Source of the DNA: Fuerstiella sp.
Lineage (GTDB): Bacteria; Planctomycetota; Planctomycetia; Planctomycetales; Planctomycetaceae
Length of the DNA stretch: 64,000 bases
Assembly: GCA_022843805.1 (NCBI GenBank)
Contig: JALHMY010000027.1
Span: 1 to 64,000, forward strand
Direction: 5' to 3'
The position numbers were made by a program, and so were the translations under genes. Shown here in pieces: positions 41,439 through 47,306 of the stretch; the first letter of the stretch is position 1; every line of letters begins with the position of its first letter. The notes beneath the pieces are model-generated. The model worked only from the letters and a program-made list of their open reading frames with translations, ran no database searches and was not told the origin of the DNA.

Positions 41439-42593
41439 ATGAATGCAACGGTGTATCACAATCTGGCGTCTCCCACAGGATCGGAACGAGATTCCGGCCT
41501 GGGTGAAGAACAGTGTGCGCAGAGAGAGTCATGGGTGCTTGTCCAGCAGGCTTCGGAAACTGGCTCGGCGCATCGGATTACAATTGTTGGCCCCGGCTTT
41601 GTTATTGGTCGCCATGCATCCAGCCACCTGACGATCATTGACCCGACGGTATCAAGTCGGCATGCCGAGCTGGTGTTTGTTAACGACGATCTGTTTGTGC
41701 GTGACCTGAACAGCACAAACGGCACACTTCTCAATGGCCGCCGCATTCAGAATCTGACTGGCCTTCGACCGGGTGATGTTCTGCATTTCGGCAGTGTGAT
41801 GTGCACATTGCAGCGCAGCAGTGATAACAAGATGACCGAAACGGTCACCGCGGATGCGTCCAGTGAGGCACTTGCACAGCTGCAGTTCGACAAGTTGCTG
41901 AAACGCCCGGCACTCAGACCCTATTTTCAGCCGATCGTCAAGCTCTCGGATCATACTCGCATCGGCTTCGAAGTTTTGTCACGCAGCTTTCTGATAGGGC
42001 TGGAAACACCTGAAAAGATGTTTCGCGTGGCCGAACAGAGAACGTCTGAAGTCGAGCTCAGTATCGTTTGCCGCTCCGAAGGGCTGAGAGTTGGTGAAGC
42101 GATCGGAAATACGATGAAGTTCTATCTGAACACTCACCCGACGGAGCTGAAGTCCGTTCGACTGTTTGAGTCTTTGACGACGATGCGAAACGAGTATCCG
42201 CACACAAATATTGTGCTGGAAGTTCATGAAGCCGCCGTCACTTCGACAGCTTTCCTTCGAGATCTTCGCAAGCATGTCAGTGATCTGCAGATGGAGCTTG
42301 CCTATGACGACTTTGGCGCAGGACAGGCAAGGCTGAAGGAATTGTTTGACGTCCCACCTGACGTGCTGAAGTTCGACGTGAAGTTTATCAACGGGTTGCC
42401 ATTTGCCAGCGCACAGCAGCGATCCACAATTCAGCAGCTGCTGAACATTGTTCGGGATCTGGGCGTGATTCCTCTTGCAGAAGGCGTCGAAACTTCCGAA
42501 GAAGCGGCCTGTTGTTTTGAGCTTGGATTCGAGCTGGCACAGGGATACCTGTTTGGCCGGGCGGAAGCCGCATCGCACTGGGCGATTCACTGA
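41439..42593 (+). CDS. FHA domain-EAL domain protein (probable c-di-GMP phosphodiesterase)
   Basis: 384 aa. The FHA domain (~48-125) keeps its phosphothreonine-binding residues: GRHAS (57-61), SSRH (72-75) and NSTNG (91-95). The EAL domain (~155-384) has FEVL in place of the usual EAL (177-180), LNTHP (230-234), LEVHE (260-264), DDFGAG (290-295), KFDVKFI (311-317), AEGVET (347-352) and AQGYLFG (367-373). The metal and catalytic residues I can check are present, so hydrolysis of c-di-GMP is likely. The FHA domain should read phosphorylation, plausibly by the kinase two genes downstream. First gene of a three-gene plus-strand operon, 54 bp before the AAA gene. Confidence 0.92.
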   Translation: MNATVYHNLASPTGSERDSGLGEEQCAQRESWVLVQQASETGSAHRITIVGPGFVIGRHASSHLTIIDPTVSSRHAELVFVNDDLFVRDLNSTNGTLLNGRRIQNLTGLRPGDVLHFGSVMCTLQRSSDNKMTETVTADASSEALAQLQFDKLLKRPALRPYFQPIVKLSDHTRIGFEVLSRSFLIGLETPEKMFRVAEQRTSEVELSIVCRSEGLRVGEAIGNTMKFYLNTHPTELKSVRLFESLTTMRNEYPHTNIVLEVHEAAVTSTAFLRDLRKHVSDLQMELAYDDFGAGQARLKELFDVPPDVLKFDVKFINGLPFASAQQRSTIQQLLNIVRDLGVIPLAEGVETSEEAACCFELGFELAQGYLFGRAEAASHWAIH

Positions 42594-42647
42594 GAGCACC
42601 ATCAGTCATTTCTTATTCAGCTGAGCTGACCGCAGAGTGATTTCAAT

Positions 42648-44012
42648 ATGCTGATGTCAAAGCCTGCCAATACGATCTCGGCTGACTCAGCGCTGTTTAC
42701 AGCGATGATGGCCGGAGAAAATTTCTGGCCCACTGATCCTCGCTCTCTTCAGGAACTGGGGTTGTCTGAACCCTTCGTTGAAGCTCATATTTGCCGGTTG
42801 CTGCTGTCAGCTGGAAATATGACGGGGCGACAGGTTGCCTCAGAGCTCTGTGTCGCTTTTCGACTGGTGGAAACTCAGATGGAGCGACTGAGGGGTCGTC
42901 GCCTGATTTCTCACTGTGGCAGTGCCAGCCTTAATGACTATATCTACGGCCTGACAGAAGAGGGGCGCAAGCGTGCACAGGTCTTTCACAGCGAGTGTTC
43001 ATATATTGGCCCGGCCCCTGTGCCGCTGATGGACTATGTGATCTCTGTCGAAGCCCAGGCAATTGGCGATCAGCCCGTTCGTCGCAATGAACTGCTGGAT
43101 GCGTTTTATGATGTCTCCGTCTCCGACGATTTGCTGGACATGCTGGGGCCGGCCGTCAATTCAGGAAGCGGTCTGTTTCTGTACGGAGCACCTGGCAACG
43201 GCAAGTCCACTCTGGCTCGATGTATCACCAGCTGCTTTGGACAGGAGATCTGGATTCCATACGCTGTGATCGATGGACGTGAGATCATCACACTTTATGA
43301 TCCGTCTTATCATGAACAGGTCGAGCAGCCTTCGGAGTCGCTCTCATTTGACAGACGCTGGATCAGAGTTCGCCGTCCGACCGTTGTGGTTGGTGGTGAA
43401 CTGACGATGGACAGTCTGGAGATTCGGCACGACCCGGTTTCATCCACCAGTGAGGCTCCGCTGCAGATGAAAAGCAACTGTGGCTGCCTGCTGATCGACG
43501 ACTTTGGTCGCCAGCGAATTTCTCCTGCAGACCTGCTGAATCGCTGGATCATTCCACTTGAGAATCGCCACGATTTTCTCACCCTGTCAACCGGAAAAAA
43601 AATTCAGGTACCGTTTGAGCAGCTGATTATATTTTCAACCAACCTCGATCCATCCGATCTGGTTGATGAAGCGTTCCTGCGGCGAATCCCCTATCGCATT
43701 GAAGTTCGCGATCCGGATGAAACGGAATTTCACCGACTGTTCCAGATCGCTGCGATTAAGCTGGGCTGTGAATACATGGCGGAACCCGTCAACCATCTGC
43801 TGGAAAAGTTCTATCGTTCAGAAAACAGATCGCTCCGCAGATGTCATGCACGCGACCTCCTTCTGCAGATACGCAATCACTGTACATATCACGATTTACC
43901 TTTCGAAATGCTGCCTGAATATTTTGACGCCGTGGCCGGCTGCTTCTTTACGCGAGTACGTACACGAAGTCTGCCGCCTTCCTCTGCGTCTTCTATAGCC
44001 AGTGTTCGCTGA
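42648..44012 (+). CDS. AAA-family ATPase with N-terminal winged-helix region
   Basis: 454 aa. Residues ~30-125 read as a winged-helix domain (ICRLLLSAGNMTGRQVASEL, then LRGRRLISHC and the wing DYIYGLTEEGRKRA). The ATPase core follows: LFLYGAPGNGKSTLAR with Walker A (180-188), LLIDDFGRQR with Walker B (281-290), the sensor Asn in IIFSTNLDPSDLVD, and an Arg-rich segment FLRRIPYRIEV that may supply the Arg finger. The sensor-2 helical lid ends the protein. It resembles AAA proteins common in planctomycetes and acidobacteria. Role unknown, but its place between the FHA-EAL gene and the kinase-tubulin gene (15 bp gap) suggests remodelling of one of their products. Confidence 0.85.
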   Translation: MLMSKPANTISADSALFTAMMAGENFWPTDPRSLQELGLSEPFVEAHICRLLLSAGNMTGRQVASELCVAFRLVETQMERLRGRRLISHCGSASLNDYIYGLTEEGRKRAQVFHSECSYIGPAPVPLMDYVISVEAQAIGDQPVRRNELLDAFYDVSVSDDLLDMLGPAVNSGSGLFLYGAPGNGKSTLARCITSCFGQEIWIPYAVIDGREIITLYDPSYHEQVEQPSESLSFDRRWIRVRRPTVVVGGELTMDSLEIRHDPVSSTSEAPLQMKSNCGCLLIDDFGRQRISPADLLNRWIIPLENRHDFLTLSTGKKIQVPFEQLIIFSTNLDPSDLVDEAFLRRIPYRIEVRDPDETEFHRLFQIAAIKLGCEYMAEPVNHLLEKFYRSENRSLRRCHARDLLLQIRNHCTYHDLPFEMLPEYFDAVAGCFFTRVRTRSLPPSSASSIASVR

Positions 44013-44027
44013 TCAGGACTACTCAGC

Positions 44028-47000
44028 ATGAAAAATACCCAGGTTGCTGCAACAGCGGTTGTTACGGACCGTCCCGTCGGGCGTGGACTGCCTGCCGGTG
44101 GCCTTCCGGAGATTTCCGGTTACCAGCTGATCGAACGTATCGGACTCGGTGGATATGGCGAAGTCTGGCGAGCTGTAGGTCCCGGCGGATTCCCCAAGGC
44201 CGTTAAGATTCTTTACGGTCAGATTGACGGACCACAGGCGGAAACAGAACTCAAATCACTCAACCTGATGAGGGAACTGAGGCATCCGTTTCTTCTGAAT
44301 GTAGAACGTGTGGAGTTCGTCAATGGAAAGCTGATCGTTGTCACCGAACTTGCCGATCGGGGACTTGATCAGAGATTTCATGAAGCTGTGCGTGCGGGGG
44401 CACGCGGGATTCCACGCGAAGAGCTGATCGCTTACCTTCGTGACGTGGCGGACGCTCTCGACTTTATGTCGGAACACCACGGGCTGCAGCATCTGGACAT
44501 TAAACCGGAAAATCTTCTGATTCAGGGAAACCATGCCAAGGTCGGCGACTTTGGGCTCACCAAAAGTGTGGGTCTGACCAACGTTTCCATGGTTAACGGA
44601 TTCACGCCTCTCTATGCACCGCCCGAACTGTTCGAAGGGCAGCCATCAAGCAACAGTGATCAGTACAGTCTGGCTATTGTTTATCAGATGATGCTGACGG
44701 GGATACCACCGTTTAATGGCCGAACGGCTGCCCATCTCACTTCGCAGCATCTTCGTGGAACGCCCGATCTGACGGCCCTCCCAATGAGCGACCGTGGAAT
44801 TGTCGCTCGGGCTTTGTCCCGAAACCCGGCAACACGATTCTCCGGATGCCGAATGTTTATTGATGAACTGGCAAAGCGCAAGGCGTCGACCAGCTCAACA
44901 GTGCGCGCGCTGAATGCAGATGCAGCGATGATGGTTTCGGGACTCACTCAGACCGTTGATCCGGCAAGTGTGGGAAAATCAGCATCAACTCCGCTTCGCC
45001 CCGCCAAACCACTCCCCCCGCTCCCGGCCGGTGCTGTTGAAGAAACTCTGCGCCCAACATTGTTCATTGCTGTCGGCGGCCTGGGTGTACAAATTGCCTG
45101 TCGACTGTTTTCGAAAATCAAAGCGGGATTCGAAAACGCTGTACCACCGACATTCGCGTTCCTGTGTCTGGATTCAGATAAGTCCGGACTGGCCCATGCA
45201 TGCCGACTGGAGGGCGAAAAGCAGGAAACTCTTCTGCAGCAACTGCCCATTCCGCTGAAGAGCCCGCAGGAGTACCGGAAATCAGCCAGTTCCCATCTGG
45301 GCTGGATCAGCCGCAGATGGCTGTTCAATATTCCGCGTTCCGGACAGGTGGAAGGAATGCGACCACTTGGCAGACTGGTATTCGTGGATCACGAGGCAGA
45401 GATACGAACGGCCGTCGCCAAACAGCTGAAAGCCATAATCTCCCCTGCTGCAATTGCCGCAAGTGTCACCGGGACACAAAGACAATTTGCAACTGGTGCC
45501 GTGGACGTTTGTCTGATTGGGTCAACTGCCGGAGGCACTTCCAGTGGCAGTCTGATTGACCTCGCTTTGCTGATACGCAAAATCCTCGACAGAAGCAGTC
45601 TGCGTGAGTCGCAGATCTCCGGAATGCTGCTGCATTCCACCAGCGTTGGAGGACAAAAGTCAGATGCTCAGGATGCAAATTCGGTCAGTTTCCTGAAGGA
45701 ACTGCATTACTTCAGTTTGCCGGGAGCCCAGGTACCGAATACCGATTCATCCGTACAGAATCTGACCCGTCCTCCTTTCGATACGGCACATTTCGTTCAT
45801 CTGGGAGATGATCTGACGTCTTCAGACTTCGAACGGCATGTGGAATTTCTCAGCGACTATCTTCACAGCTGGTCCGCTTCTTCTGAACGCGGGACACTGC
45901 AGGGCTGGAGAGACACTGAACAGAAGGAAAATGATCGGGCGTCAGAGCGGACGTTACGTACCCTGGGATACGCTTCCATTGATGGAACTGCATGGAACCT
46001 CGCGACATCAGAATCGGAAAGTCTGGCTCTTCGTGTGCTCGGGCGATGGATTGACGGCGTATCATCCGCCGGCTTCAGTCTGAACTCCGGAACGTGGGCC
46101 GCTTCGGCTCCAGGGTCTCCGGCCATGTCCGAAATTCACAACCTGCTCGAATCACTTGGGTTGAACAATGAGCAGGTCGCGGAGTCGATTCCGGGACTGC
46201 TGAGAGGGGACGTCAGTCGAAGACTCGAGTCGTATTCCGCCGATGTCTGGAACCGCGTGTCCGCTTTGCCGTCGGCGGTTTCCGATCTGGCAGGTCTGGT
46301 AAGTGCTCTTGCAACAATGATTAGCGCTGACACAACGCCAGGTGCCTCCTCTCACGACTCGGTCTCCAGAATTACTCAGACAGTTCGTCAGGAACTGAAT
46401 GCCAGACTGCAACAGGCAATTTCCAGAATACAGAATCGACTGTTTCAGGATATGGATACTCCTCAGCGACTGCAGCGTGCAGCCATGACACTTTCGACAT
46501 GTCTGAGTCGTCTGGACGCCGCCATTGCGTCCTGTTCCGCTCAAAAAGCCGATGTTCAGCAGACGTTTGCGAGCCTTTGTTCCAGCTTTTTGCAGTCAGA
46601 CGATGGGCAGTCTGAAGCAAACAGTACTGCCGCACTAAAAGGATTTTGCCAGCAGTACTGCATGCTGCTCATCTGCCAGACCGTGTGCCAGTGCATGATC
46701 GGCTATCTGACCAGTCTGCGCGAACACATTGTTCGCCAGCAGACGGAAACACTCGCCGGTTTTCGCTCCCGGCTGCTGGAGCTTGCCGCAATACTTGGAC
46801 GAGCGTCTGCAGATGCAGCCCGTGTCCCCGGTGAGGTGGTCGATTCCTTTGAAATGTATCTGCAGACTTCCGGACAGTTTCGAGTATCAGCCCTGCTGAG
46901 ATCAACGGATTCCGTCGAACGACATGGTGCCCTGATCGCTGCCGATGCCACCAACTTCCTCATCTCGGCCACAGGCACCGCTCGAATGGATTCAAAGAAA

Positions 47001-47306
47001 ACCGCCAGAAGAGACCGTGAAAATTTTCCCGCTGATGCTCATCCTGTCCTGTCAAACGTTGGCGGAGGAAGGCGAGTTCTTGCACGAATTCCTTCCAGTC
47101 TGGCGACAGAAAGCTGGCGTCCTCGTCTGCAGGCAGAGTTCGGTGACTGCGTTTCAATCCATCAGGCAAGCCGGCAGGAAGTTTCCGTGGTCTGCGAAGT
47201 TGAGGATATCGGGATTCCAACGATCGTGGACAGCCTGACCCACCTGCGGCCGCGAGTTGTGGAAATGTCAGAACGACTTCATTGCCGAACTGACATTTCG
47301 TTCTGA
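44028..47306 (+). CDS. Ser/Thr protein kinase fused to a tubulin-like (FtsZ-superfamily) domain
   Basis: 1092 aa. Hanks-type kinase (~30-285): G-loop GLGGYGEVW (39-47), catalytic Lys60 in KAVKIL, catalytic loop HLDIKPENLL (155-164), DFG (174-176) and YAPPE in the activation segment. All catalytic residues are present. A Pro-rich linker follows (~320-340). Then comes a Rossmann start TLFIAVGGLGVQIACRL (~344), a strand LCLDSDKSG (~380) and the tubulin-type nucleotide signature GSTAGGTSSGSLID (498-511), so residues ~340 to ~650 read as a Tubulin_2-like domain. The remaining ~440 residues are helical without known motifs. No membrane helix is visible, so it should be cytoplasmic. It may regulate a filament or be a filament-forming kinase; assembly is not proven. 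Confidence 0.88.
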   Translation: MKNTQVAATAVVTDRPVGRGLPAGGLPEISGYQLIERIGLGGYGEVWRAVGPGGFPKAVKILYGQIDGPQAETELKSLNLMRELRHPFLLNVERVEFVNGKLIVVTELADRGLDQRFHEAVRAGARGIPREELIAYLRDVADALDFMSEHHGLQHLDIKPENLLIQGNHAKVGDFGLTKSVGLTNVSMVNGFTPLYAPPELFEGQPSSNSDQYSLAIVYQMMLTGIPPFNGRTAAHLTSQHLRGTPDLTALPMSDRGIVARALSRNPATRFSGCRMFIDELAKRKASTSSTVRALNADAAMMVSGLTQTVDPASVGKSASTPLRPAKPLPPLPAGAVEETLRPTLFIAVGGLGVQIACRLFSKIKAGFENAVPPTFAFLCLDSDKSGLAHACRLEGEKQETLLQQLPIPLKSPQEYRKSASSHLGWISRRWLFNIPRSGQVEGMRPLGRLVFVDHEAEIRTAVAKQLKAIISPAAIAASVTGTQRQFATGAVDVCLIGSTAGGTSSGSLIDLALLIRKILDRSSLRESQISGMLLHSTSVGGQKSDAQDANSVSFLKELHYFSLPGAQVPNTDSSVQNLTRPPFDTAHFVHLGDDLTSSDFERHVEFLSDYLHSWSASSERGTLQGWRDTEQKENDRASERTLRTLGYASIDGTAWNLATSESESLALRVLGRWIDGVSSAGFSLNSGTWAASAPGSPAMSEIHNLLESLGLNNEQVAESIPGLLRGDVSRRLESYSADVWNRVSALPSAVSDLAGLVSALATMISADTTPGASSHDSVSRITQTVRQELNARLQQAISRIQNRLFQDMDTPQRLQRAAMTLSTCLSRLDAAIASCSAQKADVQQTFASLCSSFLQSDDGQSEANSTAALKGFCQQYCMLLICQTVCQCMIGYLTSLREHIVRQQTETLAGFRSRLLELAAILGRASADAARVPGEVVDSFEMYLQTSGQFRVSALLRSTDSVERHGALIAADATNFLISATGTARMDSKKTARRDRENFPADAHPVLSNVGGGRRVLARIPSSLATESWRPRLQAEFGDCVSIHQASRQEVSVVCEVEDIGIPTIVDSLTHLRPRVVEMSERLHCRTDISF

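Follow-up and report, generated by a model that had tools for sequence, protein, structure and literature searches.

What purpose does the fusion of a protein kinase with a tubulin-like domain serve, and with which partners does the protein work? The question is raised by three consecutive genes in the 64,000-nucleotide stretch of Fuerstiella sp. DNA analyzed here (the window). The initial annotation read them as a possible undescribed signaling unit, in which the kinase could phosphorylate its neighbors and tie the level of c-di-GMP to a nucleotide-driven polymer. Coordinates and domain matches agree with the three plus-strand genes and the domains that it claimed, as follows.

41439..42593, plus strand: FHA-EAL protein, 384 aa (open reading frame and Pfam; orthologues found)
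42648..44012, plus strand: winged-helix AAA+ ATPase, 454 aa (open reading frame, predicted structure, and alignments)
44028..47306, plus strand: kinase-tubulin (FtsZl1) fusion protein, 1092 aa (open reading frame, Pfam, and predicted structure)

The Locus and Its Apparent Novelty

In the list of open reading frames, the gap between the FHA-EAL and AAA genes is 54 bp, and that between the AAA and kinase-tubulin genes is 15 bp, also as first reported. Scans for promoters and terminators gave no excess over shuffled sequence. Downstream of the trio, on the same strand, lies a gene for a PQQ-type beta-propeller (PF13360; 47503-48930) that is not conserved with the trio.

The kinase-tubulin fusion is already known. 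The FtsZl1 family was described by Makarova and Koonin in 2010 (PMC2875224; Pfam Tubulin_2, PF13809), with four planctomycete members carrying an N-terminal kinase. The fusion was remarked on once more in 2023 and is noted in PMC9871819 and PMC11032199, and a 2024 study of Planctomycetota found the tubulin-like domain to be the commonest partner among the domains exclusive to cytoplasmic kinases. What appears to be new is the three-gene module. No description of it was found in the open-licence literature, where the supplementary neighborhood tables of PMC2875224 may list some of the neighbors, and the main texts on kinase-FtsZl1 fusions leave FHA-EAL and AAA partners unmentioned. Thus, the tubulin part is assigned to FtsZl1, and the module is regarded as a new variant of FtsZl1-associated systems. 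FtsZl1, named in 2010, has no demonstrated function in the literature found. The module ties an FtsZl1 protein to a kinase, a predicted phospho-reader, and an ATPase, which supplies testable partners and a candidate phosphosite.

The Trio across Planctomycetes

The gene set is kept widely and is not restricted to the window genome. Among 120 genomes of the window's order, 23 encode the kinase-tubulin fusion, and in all 20 regions with usable context (L040-L059) the three genes are found together, mostly with gaps of less than 100 bp. When the flanking genes of these regions were clustered, and part of them scanned with Pfam, none were found in common beyond the trio and GGDEF genes. A second collection, consisting of 80 loci that the AAA alignment picked out of named genomes, has the kinase-tubulin gene adjoining the AAA gene in 59 cases, with non-conserved flanks. 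The 59 loci fall into four arrangements: the window order; one with the FHA-EAL gene transcribed divergently; one that reads AAA, reversed GGDEF-like gene, FHA protein, kinase-tubulin; and one that reads AAA, kinase-tubulin, FHA-EAL. The carriers of the trio belong to two orders, being of Planctomycetales and Pirellulales type, and include the cultured Blastopirellula marina DSM 3645 and Adhaeretor mobilis HG15A2.

The three proteins diverge in step, as their sets of pairwise distances are correlated with r values of 0.70-0.83 against a permutation maximum of 0.19. Because the three genes recur together in dozens of genomes, their association is not a matter of chance; it is real.

Genomes with an AAA gene and no adjacent kinase gene would seem to be exceptions, but whole-genome searches showed that nearly all of them have a kinase-tubulin gene elsewhere. 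A confirmed gene was located in 16 of the 18 genomes tested, in every case beside an FHA-EAL gene, the FHA part of which was seen in 15 and cut off in one. Of the remaining two genomes, one has Tubulin_2 proteins of other or unverified type, and in the other none was found.

In the 120-genome set there is one clear exception, G097:C26 (L060), where the kinase-tubulin gene is broken by stops or frameshifts and has no AAA or FHA-EAL neighbor. At L130:7055-8416 (the same locus as L059), in one MAG, a stop or an assembly error divides the AAA gene into two open frames. Tubulin_2 proteins of other planctomycetes (L114, L117-L121) have a low trio-profile score and no fused kinase; the one at L120 lies near a separate kinase gene.

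FHA-EAL proteins and relatives of the AAA protein also occur in genomes with no kinase-tubulin gene, and each therefore has other uses, which counts against a module dedicated to the three. The neighbors of AAA-only and FHA-EAL-only loci have no common context.

The trio might also be explained, improbably in our estimate, as a conflict system (anti-phage or stress) akin to the tubulin/GTPase-centered systems of Kaur et al. (2020; PMC7159879). Tubulin-domain proteins are core to those systems, and the likeness extends to a tubulin homologue with a helical C-terminus encoded in an operon with an NTPase. The distribution of the fusion is patchy, at 23 of 120 genomes, and the weak PADLOC matches of the AAA protein to IetA are a weak pointer in the same direction. 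However, besides GGDEF genes the module has no recurring extra gene and thus no toxin, nuclease, or vWA partner; nor does a GAP1-type GTPase, an HSP70, or an effector gene recur, and phosphorylation and c-di-GMP domains are present instead. The PADLOC kinase matches are generic kinase-domain matches, and the steady co-divergence of the proteins is not the effector turnover of a conflict system. The lack of a conserved vWA neighbor among the recurring genes also separates the module from MoxR-vWA conflict systems. FtsZl1 itself typically has vWA, P-loop GTPase, and OmpA partners, whereas here the partners are FHA-EAL and a winged-helix AAA+; in the flanks that were clustered and partly Pfam-scanned, the recurring neighbors are the trio and GGDEF genes only, with no vWA, GTPase, or OmpA operon partners among them.

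The trio looks like one dedicated signaling machine. Judging from domains and conservation, we put at about even the chance that it is a dedicated Ser/Thr-phosphorylation module, in which the kinase-FtsZl1 protein would be the hub, the FHA protein the reader, and the AAA+ protein the third component. The parts of this proposal are considered below.

The Tubulin-like Domain

The C-terminal two-thirds of the fusion protein comprises three segments:

45060..45986, plus strand: Tubulin_2/FtsZl1 domain, residues 345-653 (PF13809, 9.7e-30)
46008..46976, plus strand: long alpha-helical region, residues 653/661-983 (predicted structure; 15% mean identity, fast-evolving)
47061..47303, plus strand: C-terminal alpha/beta subdomain, residues 1012-1092 (model; conserved R.D..W-type motif at its end)

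The initial annotation had proposed a tubulin-like fold for residues 340-650, and sequence profiles place residues 345-653 in the FtsZ/tubulin superfamily. The window protein scores 104 bits against PF13809, the curated cut-off of which is 27, and the model is matched by 36 of 36 relatives. A T1-like IAVGGLG is found at residue 347 and a T4-like GSTAGGTSSG at 498, and the GG..G box of the latter (G502, G503, and G507) is invariant in the kinase-tubulin alignment. The six sub-threshold matches of a profile search of PDB sequences include CetZ, TubZ, and FtsZ, together with a diverged FtsZ, and the two alignments displayed cover the T1 and T4 loops. PF00091 does not match the window protein and matches 10 of the 36 relatives, at best with 6.6e-6. 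Comparison with a profile of nine FtsZ sequences gave 77% probability over 40 columns versus 0.1-4% for unrelated controls. In the predicted model of the protein (mean pLDDT 83), strands alternate with helices over residues 344-652. When the full model was used for fold searches of the PDB and BFVD, kinase matches took up the results, so that the evidence for tubulin is that of the sequence profiles. From this evidence, the domain is taken to be a true but distant member of the superfamily with no recognizable T7 loop. Given also the wide conservation of the gene set, neither of the outcomes that the initial annotation named as refuting it, a gene order conserved nowhere or a fold unrelated to tubulin, has come about.

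In the tubulin part, 62 aligned sequences contain no conserved acidic/Asn motif past residue 600 that would correspond to the T7 catalytic loop, and no FtsZ C-terminal domain is recognizable in the kinase-tubulin protein; residues 653-983 are helical and evolve fast. The same combination was described for FtsZl1 (PMC2875224), where T1 and T4 motifs mark an N-terminal nucleotide-binding core that resembles tubulin, the T6-H7-T7 segment is unrecognizable, and the C-terminal region is helical. Because no T7 loop can be recognized, the sequences do not support a dynamic polymer, an element of the original proposal.

The statement that many planctomycetes are without FtsZ stands, as PF00091 is present in 6 of the 294 genomes of a phylum sample. 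Might the fusion then be a cytoskeletal or division system replacing the missing FtsZ? The assembly of the window genome is 9.2 Mb in size and contains 109 kinase-family matches. It has no PF00091 match and a single Tubulin_2 protein, which is in keeping with such a role. But FtsZ is so rare in the phylum, with none of the six genomes in the window's family, and the fusion itself so often missing (from 97 of the 120 genomes in the order), that together with the unconserved T7 loop these observations make replacement of FtsZ very improbable. The signaling module remains the preferred reading, and its catalytic component is considered next.

The Kinase and a Candidate Docking Motif

The N-terminal part of the fusion protein contains the following:

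44121..44882, plus strand: Hanks kinase domain (Pkinase, 7.4e-28, residues 32-250)
44883..45050, plus strand: kinase-tubulin linker, mostly of low confidence, candidate FHA docking site (model and motif statistics)
44946-44948, plus strand: T307 in G-L-T-Q-T-V, the candidate docking Thr in the linker

Residues K60, E74, D157, N162, and D174 of the catalytic center are invariant in the 62 aligned kinase-tubulin sequences, and all 62 have the Hanks hallmarks (Gly loop, Lys, alphaC Glu, catalytic Asp, DFG Asp, and APE Glu). All 62 also have HLD in place of HRD and are therefore not of the RD subclass, whereas HRD is found in the eight strongest kinases elsewhere in the window genome. Non-RD kinases are generally not switched through activation-loop phosphorylation. 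This would leave the tubulin part, or assembly, as the likely switch of the kinase; that is, the nucleotide or assembly state of the tubulin-like domain would be read out as kinase activity.

The linker evolves fast (17% mean identity) and yet is enriched in a short motif. T-x-φ-φ is present in 21 of 37 representative linkers, where shuffles predict 6.8 (0 of 2000 as high), and in 8 of 16 linkers of a further, previously unexamined set, where 2.9 are expected (8 of 2000); this second set is small and includes one empty linker. Ser-substituted and reversed patterns are not enriched in either set, nor is an Ala-substituted pattern in the set of 37. The motif is absent from 16 of the 37, and the window copy, T-Q-T-V, fits T..φ and not T.φφ; aligned by eye, G-L-T-Q-T-V of the window corresponds to G-L-T-Q-V-L and G-L-T-Q-M-V of relatives.

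A similar motif is found in the FHA protein of one lineage. The protein begins approximately M-x-T-[QE]-[VIL]-[MLIVF] in 18 of 22 sequences with a dead EAL domain (see below) versus 1 of 47 others. Within single genomes the linker and N-terminal motifs are alike; at L251, both read RTELM.

FHA domains bind phosphothreonine, often reading the +3 residue. We suggest that the Thr motifs of the linker and of the FHA protein are candidate FHA ligands. The test of T-x-φ-φ came after the pattern had been spotted, so that the statistics make this a strong lead rather than proof. The kinase would phosphorylate the Thr of these motifs in its own linker, and also that at the N-terminus of the FHA protein in one lineage; the FHA domain would bind the resulting phosphothreonine, docking the FHA protein on the hub. 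The originally proposed link from kinase to FHA protein is thus strengthened, at the level of sequence, by the 62 of 62 catalytic kinases, the invariant FHA pocket described next, and the Thr-specific linker motif.

The FHA-EAL Protein and c-di-GMP

The first gene of the trio encodes two domains:

41556..41828, plus strand: FHA domain with phosphothreonine-pocket residues G57, R58, S72, H75, N94, and N99 (Pfam FHA, 1.2e-18)
41889..42560, plus strand: EAL domain (Pfam EAL, 9.9e-35; catalytic set complete)

These six residues of the pocket are invariant in all FHA rows aligned over that region. The EAL domain is less constant. In the window, all eight catalytic residues, E178, N231, E261, D290, D291, K311, E348, and Q368 (ENEDDKEQ), are present, and the tree set has 49 rows, counting the window, in which the domain is intact. 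It is so in nearly all Planctomycetales-type and divergent-arrangement loci; L140 is without one residue. In 22 Pirellulales-type rows of the tree set the catalytic residues are lost while the kinase and FHA domain are retained; the orthologue of Blastopirellula marina is among those with a dead EAL. One to three changes on the kinase-tubulin tree account for the dead state, which may therefore be the result of a single old event.

The neighboring cyclases follow a related pattern. A diguanylate cyclase gene with intact GGDEF lies immediately upstream in 7 of the 80 AAA-selected loci and in 6 of the first 20 regions, and in relatives of the window an intact GGDEF is often found beside an intact EAL. 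Most dead EALs, by comparison, lie beside a divergently transcribed GGDEF-like gene that is degenerate in nearly all cases, reading GGGRF, GAGRF, or similar. Such G-x-x-R-F genes adjoin the dead EALs of L144, L147, L151, L157, L174, and L238-L252, with the exception of L248, where the EAL is dead and an intact GGEEF is nearby. The degenerate proteins may sense nucleotides instead of making them. The GGDEF-like gene of L115 encodes receiver and CBS domains too.

These data bear on whether local control of c-di-GMP is the purpose of the module, with the kinase toggling the EAL domain and any neighboring cyclase and the tubulin domain acting only in localization. The intact EAL domains and upstream cyclases just described speak for this explanation, as does the modest repertoire of the window genome, which has only 6 EAL and 11 GGDEF matches. 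We consider it doubtful nonetheless, since the EAL domain is dead in the 22 rows that keep the kinase and FHA domain, and since most loci, including the window, have no cyclase gene adjoining the module. The proposed connection to c-di-GMP therefore survives in part: cyclase genes do join the operon in some lineages, but in 22 loci the EAL domain is dead.

Returning to the phosphorylation module, our reading of the sequences is that phosphothreonine recognition would be the constant part and c-di-GMP turnover the optional one, because the pocket and kinase are invariant while the EAL catalytic residues, and nearly always the GGDEF motif beside them, are lost in one lineage. In the lineage of the window, the docked protein would be an intact EAL phosphodiesterase, often encoded next to an intact cyclase, and docking would thus adjust c-di-GMP locally. 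Where the EAL domain is dead and the neighboring GGDEF nearly always so, as in the Pirellulales-type lineage, the FHA protein would serve as a scaffold or ligand reader. A fuller version of the proposal, offered tentatively as somewhat short of an even bet, is that the hub marks both itself and its FHA partner at one T-x-φ-φ motif, that the recruited phosphodiesterase/cyclase pair lost catalysis in one lineage and remained as a phospho-gated scaffold, and that the kinase, FHA pocket, and AAA+ remodeler have been under strict selection. The two lineages constitute a natural experiment, with the c-di-GMP enzymes intact in one and dead in the other, and the rest of the module unchanged.

Two precedents are instructive. 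In DgcB of Bdellovibrio, an FHA-GGDEF protein (PMC6733907), the FHA domain gates a c-di-GMP enzyme through phosphothreonine, and the conserved Thr is in the protein's own N-terminal tail. The trio differs in having the opposite enzyme, an EAL phosphodiesterase, and a likely kinase in the same operon, and in the disappearance of enzymatic function from a whole lineage. In GarA/OdhI, with PknB/PknG (PMC2784874), a phospho-Thr near the N-terminus is likewise bound by the protein's own FHA domain. GarA/OdhI, however, have no second enzymatic domain and target metabolic enzymes, whereas here the partner is tubulin-like and fused to the kinase.

A second FHA-EAL gene in the window genome (G000:C84:9571-10674; L211), 37% identical to the first, has no kinase or AAA gene beside it. 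Within the order, 57 of the 120 genomes have matches to FHA-EAL proteins.

The AAA+ Protein

The remaining component has two recognizable parts:

42768..42956, plus strand: N-terminal winged helix, residues 41-103 (predicted structure, H-H-H-E-E, pLDDT >90)
43125..43946, plus strand: AAA+ core with Walker A GAPGNGKST at 180-188 and Walker B LLIDDFG at 281-287 (alignment and model)

With sensor-1 N332 and the Arg pair R345/R346, a candidate Arg finger, the ATPase motifs of the core are complete. Pfam AAA models match the protein below cut-off only, and the nearest solved folds of the core are an uncharacterized Pyrococcus protein and AAA+ proteins of the Lon, RuvB, and Mg-chelatase types. No domain of the module is better conserved than the core, the mean identity of which to the window is 68% over the 80 loci. 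The most likely role of the protein would be to remodel or disassemble the hub-FHA complex, or to link the complex to DNA. Transcriptional control is an alternative, to which remodeling is preferred.

Many genomes of the window's family that have no trio contain relatives with an identity of about 45-50%. A paralogue in the window genome (G000:C42:63118-64368; L113), 47% identical, adjoins the gene for a histidine kinase of 1389 aa that is rich in PAS domains and carries a receiver domain.
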